Shown: in pieces, positions 20,226 through 57,039 of the stretch
Position numbering within the stretch: position 1 is the stretch's first letter
Layout of the letters: each line of letters starts with the position of its first letter
Assembly (NCBI GenBank): GCA_002254845.1
Contig: NKPT01000006.1
Span: forward strand, 1 to 64,000
Direction of reading: 5' to 3'
Origin: Chloracidobacterium sp. CP2_5A
Lineage (GTDB): Bacteria > Acidobacteriota > Blastocatellia > Chloracidobacteriales > Chloracidobacteriaceae
DNA length: 64,000 nt
Position numbers and translations under genes: made by a program
Notes under the pieces: generated by a model
Told to the model about the DNA's origin: nothing
Databases searched by the model: none
What the model saw: only the letters and a program-made list of their open reading frames with translations

Positions 20226-20957
20226 CATAAGCCAGAATCTCGCAGGCTTGGCTGACAAACCCCAGGGCGTCGCCGGTTATGCCGCCAAGCCGTTGTTGAA
20301 AGTAACGCCCGGCAAGCCAGGCCAGCATCGCCGCCAGCGCCAGCAGCAAGCTCCCCAGCCATCCGCCGACGCCCAGCGTCACGCCGCCGCCAATCAGCAA
20401 CGCCCCAAGGACGTGTCCGCCGCGCAGAAGCTCGGCGAAGCGCCCCTTGCCGCCTTCGGCGCGAGCGTAGGGAAGCTGCCACGCGAGCCAGACCACCGCT
20501 AGGCGCGCCAGACAGGGCGCGACAATCAGCGCCCGACACAGGGATTCAACGCTGTGAAAGCTCTTGAGCGCGACAAACTGCGCCAAAACCGTCAGCAGCA
20601 GGGCCAAAACCCCAAACGTCCCGATATGCGGGTCTTTCATGATGGCCAGGCGCTGCTCCCGCGACCAGCCGCCGCCCATGGCGTCTACCGTATCGGCGAG
20701 TCCATCATAGTGCAAGGCCCCGGTGGCTATCGCCGCCAGCGCCACCAGCAGCACCGCCAGGGCGTCCGGCGACATGAAGGCATGCAGCGCCAGCGCGCAA
20801 CCCGCCTGAAACAGACCCAGCAGAGCGCCAACCAGCGGGAAATAAGCCATCGCCGCCGCGAGCGTCGGCGCGTCCGGCCGAACCCAGTCTGGCACAGGCA
20901 GGCGCGTGAGAAACGATACCGCCGCCAGGAAGCGCCGCAGCGCCGTCGCAAGCGCGC

Positions 20958-32455: not shown

Positions 32456-33397
32456 CTAGGTCGCCGCGTCCGAGGGCGGAAACTCGCGCCGGACGTATTC
32501 AAGAAAATCCGTCAAGCCGATGGCGCGAAAGTCGTGCAGAAAGATGTCATGCACTTGGGGGTCGGCGAAAGCCGCCCCGCCAATCACGATGCGGGCCGCA
32601 TGGTGCCGCGCCGCGCGGTAAAAATGCTTGTAGTCGCGCCGCAGGCGCTCCAGATCGTGAACAATGGTCGCTGAAATGCAAACCAGTTGCGGCGAAAACC
32701 GCTGCACCGCGTCGGCGAAGGAAAACAGCGGCGTATTCGGGCCCAACGAAATCGCCCGCCAGCCTTCGGCCTCCAGCGTCTCGACAACCATTTGCAGGGC
32801 GATCTCATGCAGATCGCCCTCCGGGCAGCCGCACAGAGCCACGCGCCCGTGAGCCGGCGCGCGCGGCAGCCGCCGGTGAAGATGCCCCGTCGCGGCCAGC
32901 GTCACCTGCGAGGCCAAATGCTCTTCCCAAATGTTGAGTTCCCCGCGTCGCCAGCGCTCGCCAATCAAGTGCAACACCGGCGTGAGGATGCGCTCCTTCG
33001 ACTCGATAGCCGAAATCCCGTCCTGAAACGCCCGTTCCAGCAAAGCCGCGCCGGCCGCCTCGTCGCCGGCTACGGCGGCTTCGTAATAAAGCTCCTGCAA
33101 CCGCGACCAGTCGCGGCCCGCCACGGCGAGGTCAAGCTGCGTCGCGTCCGCCGTCGCGCCGCGATGATCAGCGCCCCCGTCATCGCGCCCCGCGCCGCCA
33201 GCCCGCTGAAAGTCGAGCAACGCCTGCATGGTGAAACGCCGGTGCCCGCCGGGCGTCCGAACGCACGCCAGCGCCCCGCTATCGCTCCATCGCTTGACCG
33301 ACGACTCGCTGACGGCCCACATCCGGGCAACCTCAGCCGTGGAGTAGGTCCGACTCTGACTCAAGGCGGGCGGCGCGGCGCGCTTTGAACGAGACAC
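32456..33397 (-). CDS. CarH-like MerR/B12-binding transcriptional regulator
   Basis: 313 residues. A MerR-type winged helix (about 17-62, with STAEVARMWAVSESSVKRW and GGHRRF) is followed by a B12-binding helical module (about 105-180). A Rossmann B12 domain (185-305) ends the protein. W149 and E159-H160 give the W-x9-EH motif known from CarH, in which adenosylcobalamin acts as the light sensor. The lower-ligand His is in DLHEIA (His197), where the usual Gly of DxHxxG is Ala. It probably represses promoters in the dark and releases on light. The regulated genes are unknown; the oxidoreductase at 37791 is a candidate. Start ATG 33397 fits a promoter 60 bases upstream. Confidence 0.87.
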   Translation of the reverse strand: MSRSKRAAPPALSQSRTYSTAEVARMWAVSESSVKRWSDSGALACVRTPGGHRRFTMQALLDFQRAGGAGRDDGGADHRGATADATQLDLAVAGRDWSRLQELYYEAAVAGDEAAGAALLERAFQDGISAIESKERILTPVLHLIGERWRRGELNIWEEHLASQVTLAATGHLHRRLPRAPAHGRVALCGCPEGDLHEIALQMVVETLEAEGWRAISLGPNTPLFSFADAVQRFSPQLVCISATIVHDLERLRRDYKHFYRAARHHAARIVIGGAAFADPQVHDIFLHDFRAIGLTDFLEYVRREFPPSDAAT

Positions 33398-33462
33398 AGC
33401 AATGATAACCCAACGCAGCTTGAGAATATGAGCGTTTTGAGCGTTTCAAAAGCGACGCGAAT

Positions 33463-33492
33463 ACTGTACGGCACTTGACATGCCCAGGTCAA
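33463..33492 (-). promoter_or_regulatory. Predicted promoter of the CarH-like gene
   Basis: On the minus strand, TTGACC (33492-33487) and TACAGT (33468-33463) are separated by 18 bases. A start near 33456 leaves a leader of about 60 bases. The -35 box overlaps the inverted repeat listed at 33474-33493, consistent with autoregulation. Confidence 0.55.
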
Positions 33493-33493: not shown

Positions 33494-33699
33494 CCTTTGC
33501 CAGCCGCGCCTACCAATAGCCCAAATACTTGTTTTCAGATAATTTAGCCAGCAAGTCGCCACGCCCGACTGCAAGTCGCGAAAAATTCCCTAATTGATCT
33601 TGACTGTTTTGAGCGTTTTTCATAAGCTCTCAAGCGTAAGTCAGTCGCCGCCGCCAAATCCGGCCAGGGCCGAGCGCGGCGGCGGGGCTGACTCGGGTC

Positions 33700-33830
33700 T
33701 TTGCGAGCTTGGCGCGCATCGCTCTTGTTTGGAGGCTTGGAACGACGACTCCGGGGGGAGTTTTCAGGTCTCTTGACGCTTGGGGGGTTGCGGTGCGCGT
33801 CAAAACTTCGGTCGCTGATAAAGCGCTGAC
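33700..33830. repeat. 131-base direct repeat, copy 1
   Basis: This copy and that at 33909-34039 align without gaps over 131 bases with about eight differences, roughly 94 percent identity. The offset of 209 bases is not a multiple of three, so a shared coding frame is not being repeated. It may be a dispersed intergenic element; no other copy is seen in the window. Confidence 0.9.
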
Positions 33831-33908: not shown

Positions 33909-34039
33909 TTTGCGAGCTTGGCGCGCATCGCTTTTGTTTGGAGGCTTGGAACGACGACTCCGGGGGGAGTTTTCAGGTCTCTCGACGCTTGGGGGGTTGC
34001 GGTGCGCGTCAAAACTTTGGTCGTCGGCGAAGCGCTGAC
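33909..34039. repeat. 131-base direct repeat, copy 2
   Basis: Second copy of the element at 33700-33830; most differences fall in its last 20 bases. It lies 160 bases before the start of the next gene and could form part of its leader. The junction with the 22-base tandem repeat suggests formation by local duplication. Confidence 0.9.
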
Positions 34040-34199
34040 CCAAGTGAAATTGGGAGCGCGTTGCCGCATCGCTCCCGAGCGCGGCAAGCCCGAAGCAGGC
34101 TGGGCAGCTTCAGCTTGGCTGCGCCTGGTTTTGTATCGCTTGCTTCGTATAGGATGGGCGGCCACGTTCCTGCATCGCCAGCGCAACAAAGGCATTCTC

Positions 34200-34772
34200 A
34201 TGACGTCAATTAAGCTTCGAGTTGTGGCGGCGGTGACACGTTTCGCCCTGCGGTATCCGCGTCTGGCGTGGCGGGTGGCGCAACGCCTGGCGCCAGTTGC
34301 GACGTGGGCGATGCGCCGCTTTCGGCGCGCGCGCCCGGCGCTGGAGGATCAGGCGCTGGCGGAACTGACACGGGAGCTGACGCGAGCGACCGCCGGGAAC
34401 GCTTCGGATTGGCGGGATGTTTACGCTTTGGGAGAGCTGTGTATTCGCCAGCGCGCCTATGCCGAGGCCGCCCGGCACTTTCAGCGCATTACAGCGGCGG
34501 ATGTGACCGACCGCGAGCTCCGGCGCTCGGCCGCCTCGTGGCTGGGGCGAGCGCTTGAATACGCCGGCGACATTCCGGGCGCGCAGGCGGCCTACTGCAA
34601 TTATTTACGCGATTTTCCCGAAGTGAGCGGCTTTGAGCGGCAGCGCCTTGAGCGCCGCCTGGCCGATTTGGGCATGCCGCCGGCTCTCCCGGGCAAGGCG
34701 TCTTCCCTGGCGACGGTCGCGCCAGCCGGCGACCGCCCGAGCCGACTTCCCGCCAGGAGACAAAAGCAATGA
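34200..34772 (+). CDS. TPR-like protein of unknown function
   Basis: 190 residues. A basic, amphipathic N-terminus (about 1-45) is followed by TPR-like helices (DVYALGELCIRQRAYAEAARHFQ and SWLGRALEYAGDIPGAQAAYCNYL). There is no clear signal peptide. The ATG at 34200 has AAAGG upstream. A longer open frame begins in the repeat region but is not convincing. The stop overlaps the start of the polyprenyl synthase gene (ATGA), so the two are translated together. Function unknown; a scaffold for the isoprenoid enzyme is possible. Confidence 0.75.
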   Translation: MTSIKLRVVAAVTRFALRYPRLAWRVAQRLAPVATWAMRRFRRARPALEDQALAELTRELTRATAGNASDWRDVYALGELCIRQRAYAEAARHFQRITAADVTDRELRRSAASWLGRALEYAGDIPGAQAAYCNYLRDFPEVSGFERQRLERRLADLGMPPALPGKASSLATVAPAGDRPSRLPARRQKQ

Positions 34773-35824
34773 CGCCGATGCCCGCCAACGTGGCAACAAC
34801 CCCAAAGAGCTTATCGGCGAGTCCCGTTGACGGGGCGGTTCCGGCCGCGTTTCTGCCGCTCGCGGAGCGGGCGCAAGCCATCGCCAAAGTCATTGACGCC
34901 GCTATCGCGGAGGACCTGGACGAGGTGACGCAACCGGAGCTGCGGCAGGCCGTGACCTATCTTTTCGAGGGCAAGGGCAAGCGGCTGCGGCCGTTTTTGG
35001 TCGTCACGATGGCCGAGGCCGCCGGCGGCGCGTTTGAAGACGCGATCCCGCCGGCGCTGGCGGTCGAGTATCTGCACAACTTGTCGCTCATCCACGACGA
35101 TATGATGGATGGCAGCGCGGAGCGGCATGCGCAGTCCACGCTGCACACGCGCTTCGGGCTGAACCTGTCCCTGCTGGTTGGCGACCTGCTCTACGCCAAG
35201 GCTGTCGAGCAGGCTTCGCGCATTCGCCGCCATGCGCTGCAGATGGTTCATGTCTTGGGCGAAACGGCCAAGCAAATGTGCTACGGCCAGTTTGACGACC
35301 TGAGCTTCGAGCGGCGGCTTGACTTGGACATTGACGACTATCTGCGCATGGCGTCGCGCAAGACCTCCGCCCTGTATCGCGCGAGCTGCATCTTCGGCAT
35401 GCTGACCGCCGACGCCGACGCCGACCGCATCGCCGCCATGGCGAGCTTCGGAGAGAACATTGGCACGGCGTTTCAAATCTGGGACGACGTGCTTGACCTG
35501 CAAGCCGACCCGCTGCGCCTGGGCAAGCCCCTCGGTCTCGACATTCGGGACGGCAAAAAGACGCTGATTGTCATTCACTTTCTCAAGCATGCCCGCCCGG
35601 CGGCGCGCGAGCGATTCCTCAGGCTGCTGGGGAATCGCGATCTCAACGGCGAGCTCCAAGAAGCCATCGCGCTGCTTGAGGAAGCTGGCTCGGTTGACTT
35701 TGCCCGCAACTTGGCGATTGAGCATCTCGCTGAAGCCAAGCGGCTCTTGACCGTCCTGCCGGACAGCCCGCATCGGGCGCTACTTGACTCGTACGCCGAT
35801 TTCATGCTGCAGCGGCGGCACTGA
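34769..35824 (+). CDS. Trans-isoprenyl (polyprenyl) diphosphate synthase
   Basis: 351 residues of the E-isoprenyl synthase fold. The first Asp-rich motif is LIHDDMMD (about 110) and the second is WDDVLD followed by KPLGLDIRDGKKTL. GKGKRLRPFL is the substrate loop. The enzyme chains isopentenyl units into a prenyl diphosphate for quinones, carotenoids or other lipids. The residue five before the first DDxxD is small or medium, so product length cannot be set by eye. It shares a transcript with the upstream TPR gene and ends ahead of two hairpins. Confidence 0.92.
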   Translation: MTPMPANVATTPKSLSASPVDGAVPAAFLPLAERAQAIAKVIDAAIAEDLDEVTQPELRQAVTYLFEGKGKRLRPFLVVTMAEAAGGAFEDAIPPALAVEYLHNLSLIHDDMMDGSAERHAQSTLHTRFGLNLSLLVGDLLYAKAVEQASRIRRHALQMVHVLGETAKQMCYGQFDDLSFERRLDLDIDDYLRMASRKTSALYRASCIFGMLTADADADRIAAMASFGENIGTAFQIWDDVLDLQADPLRLGKPLGLDIRDGKKTLIVIHFLKHARPAARERFLRLLGNRDLNGELQEAIALLEEAGSVDFARNLAIEHLAEAKRLLTVLPDSPHRALLDSYADFMLQRRH

Positions 35825-37722: not shown

Positions 37723-37735
37723 CCGGCCGTATGCG

Positions 37736-37780
37736 CCCTGCCGAAGTTGCCCCTGCCGAAGTTGCCCCTGCCGAAGTTGC
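37736..37780. repeat. 15-base tandem repeat, three perfect units
   Basis: CCCTGCCGAAGTTGC is repeated three times without change (37736-37780). Read in the frame of the next gene it encodes Pro-Ala-Glu-Val-Ala three times. It is either a leader element or an N-terminal extension, depending on which start codon is used. Confidence 0.9.
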
Positions 37781-37790
37781 CAAAGCGGTT

Positions 37791-39374
37791 ATGGAAGTGG
37801 ATGTAGCGGTCATCGGCGCGGGCGTGGCGGGCTTGACAGCGGCTGCCCTGCTGCAACGCGACGGCTATCGGACGCTGCTGCTCGAAGCCCATGACAAGGC
37901 GGGCGGCTGCGCAGGCTATTTTTTCCACAAGGGCTACCATTTCGACGCTGGAGCGACGGTCCTGATGGGGCTAGACGCGGACGGGCTGCACGCGCAGACG
38001 TTTGCGCGACTGGGCGCGGCGCTGCCGGAAAGCGCGCTCATTCGGCGCGTCTCGGCGCATCTCCCCGACCGGACAATCAACATTGACCATGATCAGGCGA
38101 CCTGGGCGCGCGAGCGCGTCGAGCGCTTTGCCCGCGACGCCGCCGAAGCCGAGCGACTGCGCGCCTTCTGGCGGCTGATTGACCGGACAGCGGACGCGAT
38201 GTGGGCGGCGACGGCGAAGCTGCCCGCCCTGCCGCTGCGCGGCTGGCGCGACATCGCGGCGAATTTGCGCTTGGTTTCGCCGGGCTTTATGAGCGTCGCC
38301 CCGTATCTCTTTTCAACGGTCGGCGACGCGCTGCGTCGTCACCGGCTGCAGGAGAATGCGCCGCTGCGGGCGTTTCTCGACGGGCTGTTGCTCATCACCG
38401 CTCAGGAAACCGCCGGCCGCGCGCCGTTCCTCAACGGCGCGGCCGGGCTGGATATTTACCGGCATGGGATTCGTCGCGCGCGGGGCGGCATGAAAGCCTT
38501 CATCAAAGCGCATGTGGAGGCGTTTCGAGCGTTGGGCGGCGTTTTGAAGCTGCGTCACCGCGTGACGCGCATCGCGCCGCAGCGCGGGGGCGGCTACTTG
38601 GTCGAGACCGAGCGCGGCTTAATCGCTCGCGCGCCGCGCGTTGTGGCGAATCTGCCGATCTGGAACCTGCCGGGGCTAATCGAGGCCGACCTGTCGGCGC
38701 GGCTGGCGCGCCCGCTTGAGAAAGCCGGAACCGGCTGGGGCGCGTTCACGCTCTACCTGGGCGTCCGGGCGGAGGTCATTCCCGACGACGCGCCGCTCAA
38801 TCACCAGGTTTTGCTCCGCTACAACGAGCCCTTCGAGGATGGTAACAGCGCGTTTCTGAGCCTGAGCGAGCCGGACGACCGAGCCAGCGCGCCGCCGGGC
38901 CGCCGGACGCTCAATATCTCAACGCATACCGAGGTTGACGGATGGTGGCGCGCCGACCCGGAAGCCTACGCCGCGCGGCGGGCGGAGGTCGCGGAGCGCC
39001 TGTTGACGGCGGCGGAGCGCGTCTTTCCCAACCTCCGCGACGGCATTGAGTGTCAGCTGCCGGGGACCCCCGTGACGTTTGCGCGCTACACGGGACGCGC
39101 GCGCGGGATGGTCGGCGGGCTGCGGACAACGCTCTGGAACAGCAACCTGTTCGGCATTGGCGCCCGCGACGCGGGGCTGCCGAACTTCTGGCTCGTGGGC
39201 GATACGGTCTTTCCGGGCCAGGGCACGCCGGCCTGCGCGCTGTCCGGCATCAACGCCTGGCGCGACATCACCGGCCGCTGGACGCTCCAGTCGCCGCCGT
39301 CGCGGGAGCCGGCGCCGGACGAACAGCCATCCGCGCTCAACCCCGCGCCGCCGCTTGCGCGGACGGCGCGCTGA
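37791..39374 (+). CDS. FAD-dependent carotenoid desaturase/isomerase-like oxidoreductase (CrtI/CrtISO family)
   Basis: 527 residues. The N-terminal dinucleotide fold is AVIGAGVAGLTAAALL followed by the LLLEAHDKAGGCAGYF segment. The C-terminal FAD signature has LVGDTVFPGQGTPACALSGINAW. This places it with phytoene-desaturase-related enzymes, probably a carotenoid desaturase, isomerase or hydratase-type relative. No phytoene synthase or lycopene cyclase is in the window, so the exact step is open. ATG 37791 gives the canonical short N-terminus; ATG 37731 would add a repeat-encoded extension. It follows miaA with its own -10 box. Confidence 0.85.
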   Translation: MEVDVAVIGAGVAGLTAAALLQRDGYRTLLLEAHDKAGGCAGYFFHKGYHFDAGATVLMGLDADGLHAQTFARLGAALPESALIRRVSAHLPDRTINIDHDQATWARERVERFARDAAEAERLRAFWRLIDRTADAMWAATAKLPALPLRGWRDIAANLRLVSPGFMSVAPYLFSTVGDALRRHRLQENAPLRAFLDGLLLITAQETAGRAPFLNGAAGLDIYRHGIRRARGGMKAFIKAHVEAFRALGGVLKLRHRVTRIAPQRGGGYLVETERGLIARAPRVVANLPIWNLPGLIEADLSARLARPLEKAGTGWGAFTLYLGVRAEVIPDDAPLNHQVLLRYNEPFEDGNSAFLSLSEPDDRASAPPGRRTLNISTHTEVDGWWRADPEAYAARRAEVAERLLTAAERVFPNLRDGIECQLPGTPVTFARYTGRARGMVGGLRTTLWNSNLFGIGARDAGLPNFWLVGDTVFPGQGTPACALSGINAWRDITGRWTLQSPPSREPAPDEQPSALNPAPPLARTAR

Positions 39375-41701: not shown

Positions 41702-41815
41702 ACTACAGTCAGGAGGTAGCACAATCTACTCGATGTGGGAACGGGCGCGAAAGCCGCCGGTTCCCGAAATCGCGTCTTTGAGCGAAACATTTTTGGACAA
41801 GCGAGGCATAAGGCG

Positions 41816-43168
41816 ATGTCATCGGGAACTGCCGCGGAGCGCGTGCCGGTCACGGTGTTGACGGGCTTTTTGGGAGCGGGGAAAACCACGCTGCTAAACC
41901 GGCTACTGACCGAGCGGCACGGCAAGCGAATTGCCGTCATCGAGAACGAGTTTGGCGAGGTCGGCGTGGACAACGAGCTGGTCATTGACGCCGAAGAGGA
42001 AATCTTCGAGATGAACAACGGGTGCATCTGCTGCACCGTCCGGGGCGATCTCATCCGCATTCTCGGCAATCTGATGAAGCGCAGGGACAAGTTTGACTAC
42101 ATCCTCGTCGAGACGACCGGCCTGGCCGACCCGGGACCCGTGGCGCAGACCTTCTTCGTGGACGACGAGGCGCGGCGCAAAACGCGCTTGGACGGCATCG
42201 TGACGCTTGTGGACGCCAAGCACGTCTGGGAGCATTTCGATACAAGCGAGGTCAAAGAGCAAATCGCCTTTGCCGACGTCATCCTGATCAACAAAACCGA
42301 TCTGGCGGACGCGGAGACGCTTGACCGGCTGGAGCGACGCATCCGCGCGATGAACGCCACGGCGAAAGTTCTGCGCGCGCAGCAGTCCAACGTCCCGGCG
42401 GACGCCCTGCTCGACATCGGCGCGTTCGACTTGAACCGGGCGCTGGCGGTGGATCCGCAGTTTTTGGAGCCGGAGTATCCGTTTGAATATGGCGGCGCGT
42501 ACGAGCTGGCGGCCGGGCGGTACGAGCTTGTCATGCAGCCCGGACCCGACCCTGAAATGGACGCCGCGCTGCTGCCCGTCCCCGCCGGCGCGGAAGACGG
42601 CTTGGCGGCGACGGCCGACCGCGCCTTGGTTGTCTTCTCCGACGAGCCGGATTTGATGACGACAGGGAGCGTGATGACGCCGGGCGAGCGATTGCGGCGG
42701 CTGTGTCTGGAAGCCGCCGGCCCGACGACCTTTGTCTTTGAAGTTGAGCAAGATGGACGGTATGCGCTCTTTACCCGGCATCACCCCGACGAGTTCGCGG
42801 CCGCGCTCCGCCGCGACGGCCGCGAGATCGCGCCGACGGCGAGCCGGGCGTACAAGCCTGACCACGAACATGACGACGAGGTGTCGTCGGTTGGGATCAC
42901 GACGCCGGGCGATCTCGATCCGAAAAAGCTCAATGCGTGGCTGGGCGACTTGCTCCAGAGCCAAGGGCCGGACATTTTTCGGATGAAGGGCGTTTTGAGC
43001 ATCGCGGGCGATCCGCGCCGGTTTGTGTTTCAGGGCGTCCACATGATGTTTGACGGTCGCCCCGACCGCGAATGGGGCGCGGAGCCGCGCCACAACGCGC
43101 TGGTCTTCATTGGGCGCAACCTCGACCGGGCGGCGCTGGAAGCGAGCTTCCGAGCGTGTTTAGCATAG
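41816..43168 (+). CDS. CobW/COG0523-family GTPase metallochaperone
   Basis: 450 residues. GFLGAGKTTLLN is the P-loop, GCICCTVRGD holds the CxCC metal motif, ETTGLADP and NKTDL complete the GTPase, and a CobW C-terminal domain follows. An insertion of about 120 residues separates the two domains, with an acidic His-containing segment (PDHEHDDEV). COG0523 proteins insert or buffer zinc, cobalt or other metals. Location opposite a His-rich ABC exporter supports a metal-homeostasis role more than B12 assembly. AAGG precedes ATG 41816; an upstream frame to 41735 is less likely. Confidence 0.9.
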   Translation: MSSGTAAERVPVTVLTGFLGAGKTTLLNRLLTERHGKRIAVIENEFGEVGVDNELVIDAEEEIFEMNNGCICCTVRGDLIRILGNLMKRRDKFDYILVETTGLADPGPVAQTFFVDDEARRKTRLDGIVTLVDAKHVWEHFDTSEVKEQIAFADVILINKTDLADAETLDRLERRIRAMNATAKVLRAQQSNVPADALLDIGAFDLNRALAVDPQFLEPEYPFEYGGAYELAAGRYELVMQPGPDPEMDAALLPVPAGAEDGLAATADRALVVFSDEPDLMTTGSVMTPGERLRRLCLEAAGPTTFVFEVEQDGRYALFTRHHPDEFAAALRRDGREIAPTASRAYKPDHEHDDEVSSVGITTPGDLDPKKLNAWLGDLLQSQGPDIFRMKGVLSIAGDPRRFVFQGVHMMFDGRPDREWGAEPRHNALVFIGRNLDRAALEASFRACLA

Positions 43169-55686: not shown

Positions 55687-57039
55687 TCACCCAATCCGCC
55701 GCCACAGCAACCACAGCAGAGCGAGACAGACCGCGAGCGCGCTCATCGTCAGCGCCAGGTCAAGCCAGCGATCCTGCCGCTGAGCGCGGGCGCGCGCTTC
55801 GGCATAGGGAATCCGCGTAAACGACACCATTGTGTAAAGCGGCAAAAAGCGGTCGCCGAGAACGCCGGAGAGCGCGTATTCCAGCCGCCGCCGCAGGAGA
55901 AACCACGGCGACGCCACCTTGGCGCGCATCTCCAGGTAGTTTTCATAGGCCAGCTCGGCTAGCGCGTCAGTATTGACCTTGCGCTGCCGCTGGTAATCGA
56001 GAAACGCCGCGGCCGTATCGCCGTTATGCCGCCGGAGACACGCATCTAAAACGAAGCAGTCCTCAAACGAGGCGTTCATGCCCTGCCCGTAAAACGGCAC
56101 GACCGCATGCGCCGCGTCACCCACCAAGACGACCCGTCCAGCGTATTGCCAGGGGAAACAGCGAATCGTCACCATGGCGCCAGTCGGATTACGCTTGAAA
56201 TCCTCCAGCAGCGTCGGCATCAGCGGCGTGACATCCGGGAAGCGCCGGTCGAAGAAGTCGCGGATGGCGTCGTCCTCGGTCAGTTGCGCGAAGCTTTCCG
56301 CGCCTTCATAAGCCAAAAACAGCGTGCAGGTAAACGAGCCGTCCAAGTTCGGCAGCGCGATGAGCATGAAATCCTGGCGCGGCCAAATGTGCAGGTAGTT
56401 CTTTGCGAGCGCGTGCGATCCGTCTGGCAGCGCCGGGATGGTCAGCTCCTTATAGCCGTGCGGTAAAAAGGACTGCGAATAGTCATAGCGCCCGGCGCGC
56501 TGGAGCGCCTGGCGAATCGAGGAAAAGGACCCGTCCGCGCCCACCACCGTCTGGGCGCTAACCTGTCGCGTCACTCGCGCTTGCGCATCCTCGATATCCA
56601 GCGTCATCGCGGACAGGTTCAGCCCGACGCAGCGCGAGGAGAAATGAATTTCCAGATTTGGACAGCCGGCGGCGGCGTCCAGCAGGGCGCAGTTCAGCTG
56701 GTGACGCGAGATGGAAAAGATGGTTTCCTCGGCCGAGCGCCCGTAGGGTTGAAAAGTCAGGTCCCCCTGTGGGCTGTGGATCATGCGCCCGCGCATCGGA
56801 ATCGCCAGGGGGCGAATGACCTGCGCCAGCCCGATGGCTTCGAGAGCGTGCAGCCCGCGCGTCGAAAGCGCTAGGTTGATGGAGCGCCCGCGCGGAACGG
56901 AGGTCGCTCGCATGTCCGGGTTGCGCTCGTAGAGCGTGACGCGGCTCCCCTGCCGGGCAAGGTAGAGCGCCGCGAGCGTCCCGGCCAGCCCAGCGCCACA
57001 AACCGTGAAGCTTGGCCCAGCCATCAGATCGCTAGACAT
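55687..57039 (-). CDS. kmo: Kynurenine 3-monooxygenase
   Basis: 450 residues. FTVCGAGLAGTLAALYLA is the FAD dinucleotide fold, GRSINLALSTRG and YGRSAEETIFSISR are family motifs, and VVLVGDAAHAVVPFYGQGMNASFEDC is the second FAD site. A C-terminal transmembrane segment (LTMSALAVCLALLWLLW) resembles the membrane anchor of eukaryotic KMO. The enzyme hydroxylates L-kynurenine, leading to tryptophan breakdown or NAD synthesis through quinolinate. No other kynurenine gene is present. Divergent from the kinase gene across 126 bases. Confidence 0.93.
   Translation of the reverse strand: MSSDLMAGPSFTVCGAGLAGTLAALYLARQGSRVTLYERNPDMRATSVPRGRSINLALSTRGLHALEAIGLAQVIRPLAIPMRGRMIHSPQGDLTFQPYGRSAEETIFSISRHQLNCALLDAAAGCPNLEIHFSSRCVGLNLSAMTLDIEDAQARVTRQVSAQTVVGADGSFSSIRQALQRAGRYDYSQSFLPHGYKELTIPALPDGSHALAKNYLHIWPRQDFMLIALPNLDGSFTCTLFLAYEGAESFAQLTEDDAIRDFFDRRFPDVTPLMPTLLEDFKRNPTGAMVTIRCFPWQYAGRVVLVGDAAHAVVPFYGQGMNASFEDCFVLDACLRRHNGDTAAAFLDYQRQRKVNTDALAELAYENYLEMRAKVASPWFLLRRRLEYALSGVLGDRFLPLYTMVSFTRIPYAEARARAQRQDRWLDLALTMSALAVCLALLWLLWRRIG

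Follow-up and report, generated by a model that had tools for sequence, protein, structure and literature searches.

A closely related, already characterised counterpart of the regulator studied here is CtMerR (WP_157850694; structures 8JBS and 8JBT), for which AdoCbl binding, green-light photolysis and crystal structures were published in 2024 (PMC11796333). CtMerR is a tetramer in the dark and a monomer in the light, its lower (axial) ligand is His204, and it has an Arg where TtCarH has His132; AdoCbl binding and the loss of the oligomer in light were demonstrated, DNA binding excepted (PMC11796333). CarH operators consist of three to five 11-bp TnnACA direct repeats (PMC8156234, PMC9304148). 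The CarH motif is given in the literature as D/ExHx2G/P, and the W-x9-EH motif is incomplete in CarA (PMC9304148). BldC, a third point of reference, reads head-to-tail repeats 9 bp long, written AATTXXXX(C), where Arg30 recognises the C-G pair (PMC5859096). C. thermophilum requires B12, which the genus is said to obtain by salvage.

The window, that is the whole stretch of 64,000 nucleotides analysed from Chloracidobacterium sp. CP2_5A, contains a gene of this kind. Its features are as follows:
32456..33397 (-), CtMerR ortholog, a MerR/BldC-like DNA-binding domain with a CarH-type AdoCbl sensor (ORF, Pfam, match to 8JBS)
33200..33349 (-), winged-HTH DNA-binding domain, residues 17-66 (Pfam HTH_17; among solved relatives besides CtMerR, BldC 6AMK/6AMA is best)
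32879..33097 (-), four-helix cap (B12-binding_2), residues 101-173, with W149-x9-E159-H160 (Pfam, conserved residues)
32567..32839 (-), Rossmann B12-binding domain, residues 187-277, with His197 and GxxxP at 219-223 (Pfam; axial ligand His204 in CtMerR, PMC11796333)

The regulator ORF runs on the minus strand from a GTG start at 33397 to a stop ending at 32456 and encodes 313 aa. All its Pfam matches are over cut-off (HTH_17 18-66, B12-binding_2 101-173, B12-binding 187-277), and the order of MerR-like DNA-binding domain, four-helix cap and Rossmann B12 domain is that of CarH-type AdoCbl photoreceptors. When compared with solved structures using phmmer, the top match was 8JBS (E 1e-153 over residues 2-311), the next best being TtCarH at about E 1e-17. 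The protein is about 73% identical to CtMerR over its full length and, judged on sequence, is an ortholog of this known photoreceptor of solved structure. The gene is present in 10/10 family genomes, with a single ortholog in each genome of the genus, and the orthologs in six other genus genomes are 72-84% identical to that of the window. A search for plasmid-borne homologs returned distant CarH and cobalamin proteins only.

The regulator carries W149-x9-E159-H160, D195-L-H197-E-I-A200 and G219-x3-P223, with Arg150 directly after the Trp, and the light-response signature GxxW, EH, GxxH, GxxxP is present as given in PMC11796333. The signature residues are conserved in the compared family orthologs, with the sole exception of E198G beside the His in G001, whose ortholog (L012, G001:C1:205203-206159) reads DLHGIA in place of DLHEIA at the axial histidine. 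The original prediction had proposed a CarH-like B12 photoreceptor with the W149-x9-EH signature, His197 as candidate lower ligand and an altered B12 motif. The signature is upheld and the photoreceptor reading strongly supported, AdoCbl binding and a green-light response being known for a close ortholog in which the key residues are identical (PMC11796333), and His197 corresponds to CtMerR His204. The substitution of Ala for Gly in the B12 motif is real, but it is not an unusual alteration: Ala200, at the glycine position of DxHxxG, is common to CtMerR (8JBS alignment) and the genus orthologs, and in more remote homologs this residue is Ala or Pro. It is a clade trait, and no bar to AdoCbl binding in CtMerR. 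By analogy with CtMerR, it is very probable that the regulator functions as a photoreceptor.

The region between the regulator and the synthase gene is laid out as follows:
33429..33446 (-), predicted Operator 1, AAACGCTCAAAACGCTCA, a pair of direct repeats with a 9-bp period, immediately past the -10 of the regulator's own promoter
33463..33492 (-), regulator promoter TTGACC-N18-TACAGT (promoter scan, 1 found against an expectation of 0.1 from shuffles; orthologs keep it)
33600..33628 (+), divergent promoter TTGACT-N17-TAAGCT (conserved across the ten family genomes)
33601..33618 (-), predicted Operator 2, AAACGCTCAAAACAGTCA, which overlaps the divergent promoter at its -35 and spacer
33635..33702 (+), 5' region of the RNA with a predicted hairpin (without sequence conservation; hairpin in most versions; suggestive)
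33703..33810 (+), predicted structured RNA core, copy 1, with P1, asymmetric loop, P2 and P3 (fold, covariation, covariance model)
33912..34019 (+), predicted structured RNA core, copy 2, a tandem duplicate (also in G004)
34150..34155 (+), TAGGAT -10 of the downstream operon (read by eye; conserved in ten genomes; no operator)
34200..34772 (+), conserved protein, TPR-like by eye, just before the synthase (ORF; no NCBIfam match)
34769..35824 (+), polyprenyl/geranylgeranyl diphosphate (GGPP) synthase (syntenic in all nine relatives)

Paired 9-bp direct repeats of the AAAACGCTC type were found between the regulator and the polyprenyl/GGPP synthase gene in 10/10 family genomes. In the 3.4-Mb window genome there are exactly two matches to the pattern AAACGNYCAAANCRNYCA, at 33429-33446 and 33601-33618, and the upstream repeats mentioned in the original prediction therefore exist. 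The pattern is found at the regulator locus in all ten family genomes (in G009 at one of its two sites), against one match in the ten genomes for the reversed-pattern control; the upstream regions were compared side by side, and the pattern was derived from the same sites with which it was then searched. The half-site CRNYCA recurs at period 9 in all ten upstream regions. A CarH-type TnnACA pair at period 11 occurs in none of the ten, and operators of the CarH-style 11-bp kind were rejected on this ground. A one-mismatch scan for a wider regulon in seven genus genomes gave no second site common to the genus.

Outside the family, 20 loci with roughly 34-39% identical homologs from another Blastocatellia family were searched. 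Eight of the ten motif matches in 179 kb fell within the 9.8 kb upstream of regulators (p 3e-9, a value somewhat weakened by the pattern having been fixed after the half-sites were seen; reversed control 0), and the motif occurs at only 7/20 of these loci. In several cases the match again follows directly on the -10 element of a TTGACA promoter. At L138 and L140, likewise from another Blastocatellia family, the same repeats precede divergent genes that are fasciclin-domain-like by eye, and the target of the regulator clade seems to have changed there.

The DNA-binding domain alone matched BldC (6AMK) with E 4e-7 vs TtCarH with E 0.0084; the query had one V for L at the second or third position, outside the aligned part. 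The repeats (G)AAACGCTC and AAAACGCTC are compatible with the form of a BldC site. If four residues of the 72-residue chain are taken to be a tag, counting along the alignment would place BldC Arg30 opposite R36, which is invariant in the aligned orthologs. As the domain is BldC-like and BldC binds 9-bp direct repeats, the 9-bp period supports the repeats as sites of the regulator, and it is likely that they are its operators.

The divergent promoter is of the TTGACY-N17/18 type in 10/10 family genomes. Further downstream, a TTG-type -35, read by eye, accompanies the TAGGAT -10 between the RNA element and the synthase operon, again in all ten. A conserved GTTCCYGCA-like stretch (34156-34180) follows this -10 in most family genomes. 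By promoter anatomy, the predicted direct targets would be the regulator and the RNA, and the synthase would be reachable only by read-through or via the RNA. The suggestion that light directly controls carotenoid genes does not agree with this layout, in which the conserved operators lie on the regulator and RNA promoters and the GGPP synthase promoter is separate and without operator. An indirect link of the regulator to isoprenoid supply is possible.

The isoprenoid genes reported nearby are indeed present, as the synthase (34769-35824) and a CrtD/CrtI-like desaturase (37731-39374). The synthase resembles several prenyl synthase models of NCBIfam, and because these matches are below every equivalog cut-off the chain length of its product is presumptive. 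The gene cobS, correctly placed in the same window, lies at 20227-20922 on the minus strand, about 12 kb from the regulator, and thus shares no operon with it. A CobW-family GTPase (41735-43168), which scores under the CobW equivalog cut-off, may serve as a metallochaperone and not in B12 synthesis. A BtuR-type adenosyltransferase is present in the genome; one of the PF01923 type was not found there. An FAD monooxygenase at 55687-57039 on the minus strand has the violacein oxygenase VioC as its best NCBIfam match, well below cut-off.

The RNA core is an element of 108 nt downstream of the divergent promoter. Judging from the -10, the RNA would start at 33635; its end too is presumptive, and terminator-like hairpins are weak in several genomes. 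The 5' hairpin has weak to moderate fold z-scores. Three divergent versions of the RNA fold far better than shuffles (z -3.9, -3.7 and -5.6) and have a common shape of P1, an asymmetric loop with invariant ACGCUUGGGGG, P2 and P3. In an alignment of 12 sequences, 97% of cells pair and 7 pairs change on both sides, a covariation reached in 0/500 shuffles (slid controls pair at 31-59%), most of which comes from the two divergent genomes G008 and G009, the genus copies being nearly identical. The core is tandem in the window genome and in G004 (G004:C90:22254-22554) and single in the other eight, and the second copy is without an operator-bearing promoter of its own.

A covariance model recovered the RNA in 10/10 family genomes, at the regulator locus only. 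It was found in 0/152 other genomes of the class and in none of 390 other phylum genomes sampled, a set overlapping the class, with stricter filters in both searches. The models of Rfam 15 gave no match, even in permissive searches, so that a known Rfam family was discounted; 6S RNA was likewise dismissed, its match lying elsewhere in 9/10 genomes. The best conserved reading frame is broken by indels of 1-2 nt, which makes a short gene unlikely, and a dispersed repeat was rejected because each genome has either a single copy or two, always at the regulator locus. The element is likely to be a real structured RNA, as predicted from these alignments. At the level of predicted features, the comparison establishes the repeats, the promoter layout, the RNA structure and the strict linkage of RNA to regulator. 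As a tentative best guess, the RNA might act in trans and use its G-rich loop to tune genes for pigments or isoprenoids.

The ten-genome comparison suggests a distinctive kind of DNA site through which the switch would act on two targets, its own gene and a structured RNA nearby that has not been described before. The explanation we favour, and hold to be fairly probable, is that an AdoCbl-bound dark tetramer represses its own gene and the divergent RNA through the 9-bp repeats, and that light or lack of B12 releases both. The dark repressor would combine a winged-HTH domain like that of BldC with an AdoCbl light sensor of the CarH type, as a tetramer holding AdoCbl with His197 below and with W149, E159 and H160 around the adenosyl group. 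Its DNA-binding domain would pair head-to-tail on the 9-bp direct repeats. The operator just after its own -10 would provide autoregulation, and the second, inside the divergent sigma70-type promoter, would repress the conserved structured RNA. Green light would cleave the Co-C bond, the tetramer would fall apart and both promoters would be free; a B12 shortage would bring about the same release in these B12-salvaging bacteria. We infer the roles given here to the parts, namely the repeats as operators of the regulator, repression as its action, the RNA as direct target and the RNA as tuner of pigment/isoprenoid output. On balance, direct control of the RNA by light and B12 is the better supposition.

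The main rival explanation would make the light-controlled transcript from the divergent promoter a long leader of the synthase operon, so that the photoreceptor directly switches the synthase and the element is cis-acting, as an attenuator or riboswitch-like. The synthase follows the element on the same strand in all nine relatives, and the tandem copies in two genomes recall tandem leaders. Moreover, a scan of the window found no strong terminator after the element. However, the TAGGAT -10 and its TTG-type -35 stand between element and operon in all ten genomes, strong hairpins follow the element in G002, G003 and G007, and in G009 a T-run comes directly after P1. We regard a cis-acting leader as unlikely.

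Less probable again is that the repeats are sites of another regulator, with the B12 photoreceptor acting elsewhere and the conserved place reflecting mere synteny. In two families the motif accompanies the regulator, the rest of the genomes being almost free of it, and its period suits a BldC-like domain, although it is absent upstream of 13/20 distant homologs. It is very improbable that the protein binds B12 as a light-independent sensor, CarA-like or degenerate through its altered motif. The change from Gly to Ala at 200 and Arg150 at the position of TtCarH His132 would fit such a sensor, but they do not abolish function, since CtMerR has both and yet binds AdoCbl, photolyses and monomerises. 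In addition, W149-x9-EH is intact in the window protein, whereas it is incomplete in CarA.

A dark repressor acting on its own gene and the divergent RNA is still the reading we prefer. Its widest form has about even chances: a B12 photoreceptor with a BldC-type DNA reader would control itself and a new family of structured non-coding RNA, and light and B12 supply would reach phototroph metabolism via this RNA. What is known here is the photoreceptor, as a CtMerR ortholog; what is new is the regulatory anatomy, that is the predicted operators and the predicted RNA. Neither the operator code nor the RNA was found in the CtMerR paper (PMC11796333) or in the wider literature, in a search with subscription papers mostly outside its reach, and the literature searched held nothing relevant on CarH or AdoCbl photoreceptors linked with small RNAs. 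The CtMerR paper gives a crystal structure without naming a DNA site or a target, and the predicted operators and two promoters make both testable. For optogenetics, the operators could also provide a B12 light switch that has an operator code of its own. Should the RNA be confirmed, a B12 photoreceptor would be controlling a regulatory RNA, for which no precedent was found in the literature searched. The setting is that of chlorophyll-based phototrophs of the Acidobacteriota, which must scavenge B12.

Among known systems, CtMerR is matched in its signature residues, in the Ala after the axial His and in the Arg after the Trp, and the G001 ortholog, from within the genus, is closer yet to the window protein. 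The window species differs from that of CtMerR, however, and operator, promoter and target gene are not described in the CtMerR paper (PMC11796333). 6S RNA resembles the element as a stable RNA with closing stem, internal bubble and apical stem; unlike it, the element is without an Rfam match, and 6S has its own separate match elsewhere in 9/10 genomes. CarH of Thermus thermophilus, Bacillus megaterium and myxobacteria shares the domain order and the AdoCbl sensor motifs, and a dark tetramer repressing a promoter, as in CarH, would be expected for the window protein. In contrast to CarH, the locus carries paired 9-bp repeats and lacks those of 11 bp, and the DNA-binding domain is only weakly CarH-like. 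The predicted photochemistry also differs in detail from that of TtCarH, because Arg150, likewise Arg in CtMerR, rules out the bis-His light state. BldC of Streptomyces (6AMA/6AMK; PMC5859096) is without a sensor domain and without a response to light or B12, unlike the window protein. It nevertheless provides the nearest solved DNA-binding domain, and the predicted operators of this locus resemble its sites, which are 9-bp head-to-tail direct repeats made up of an AT-rich part, four bases and a C.
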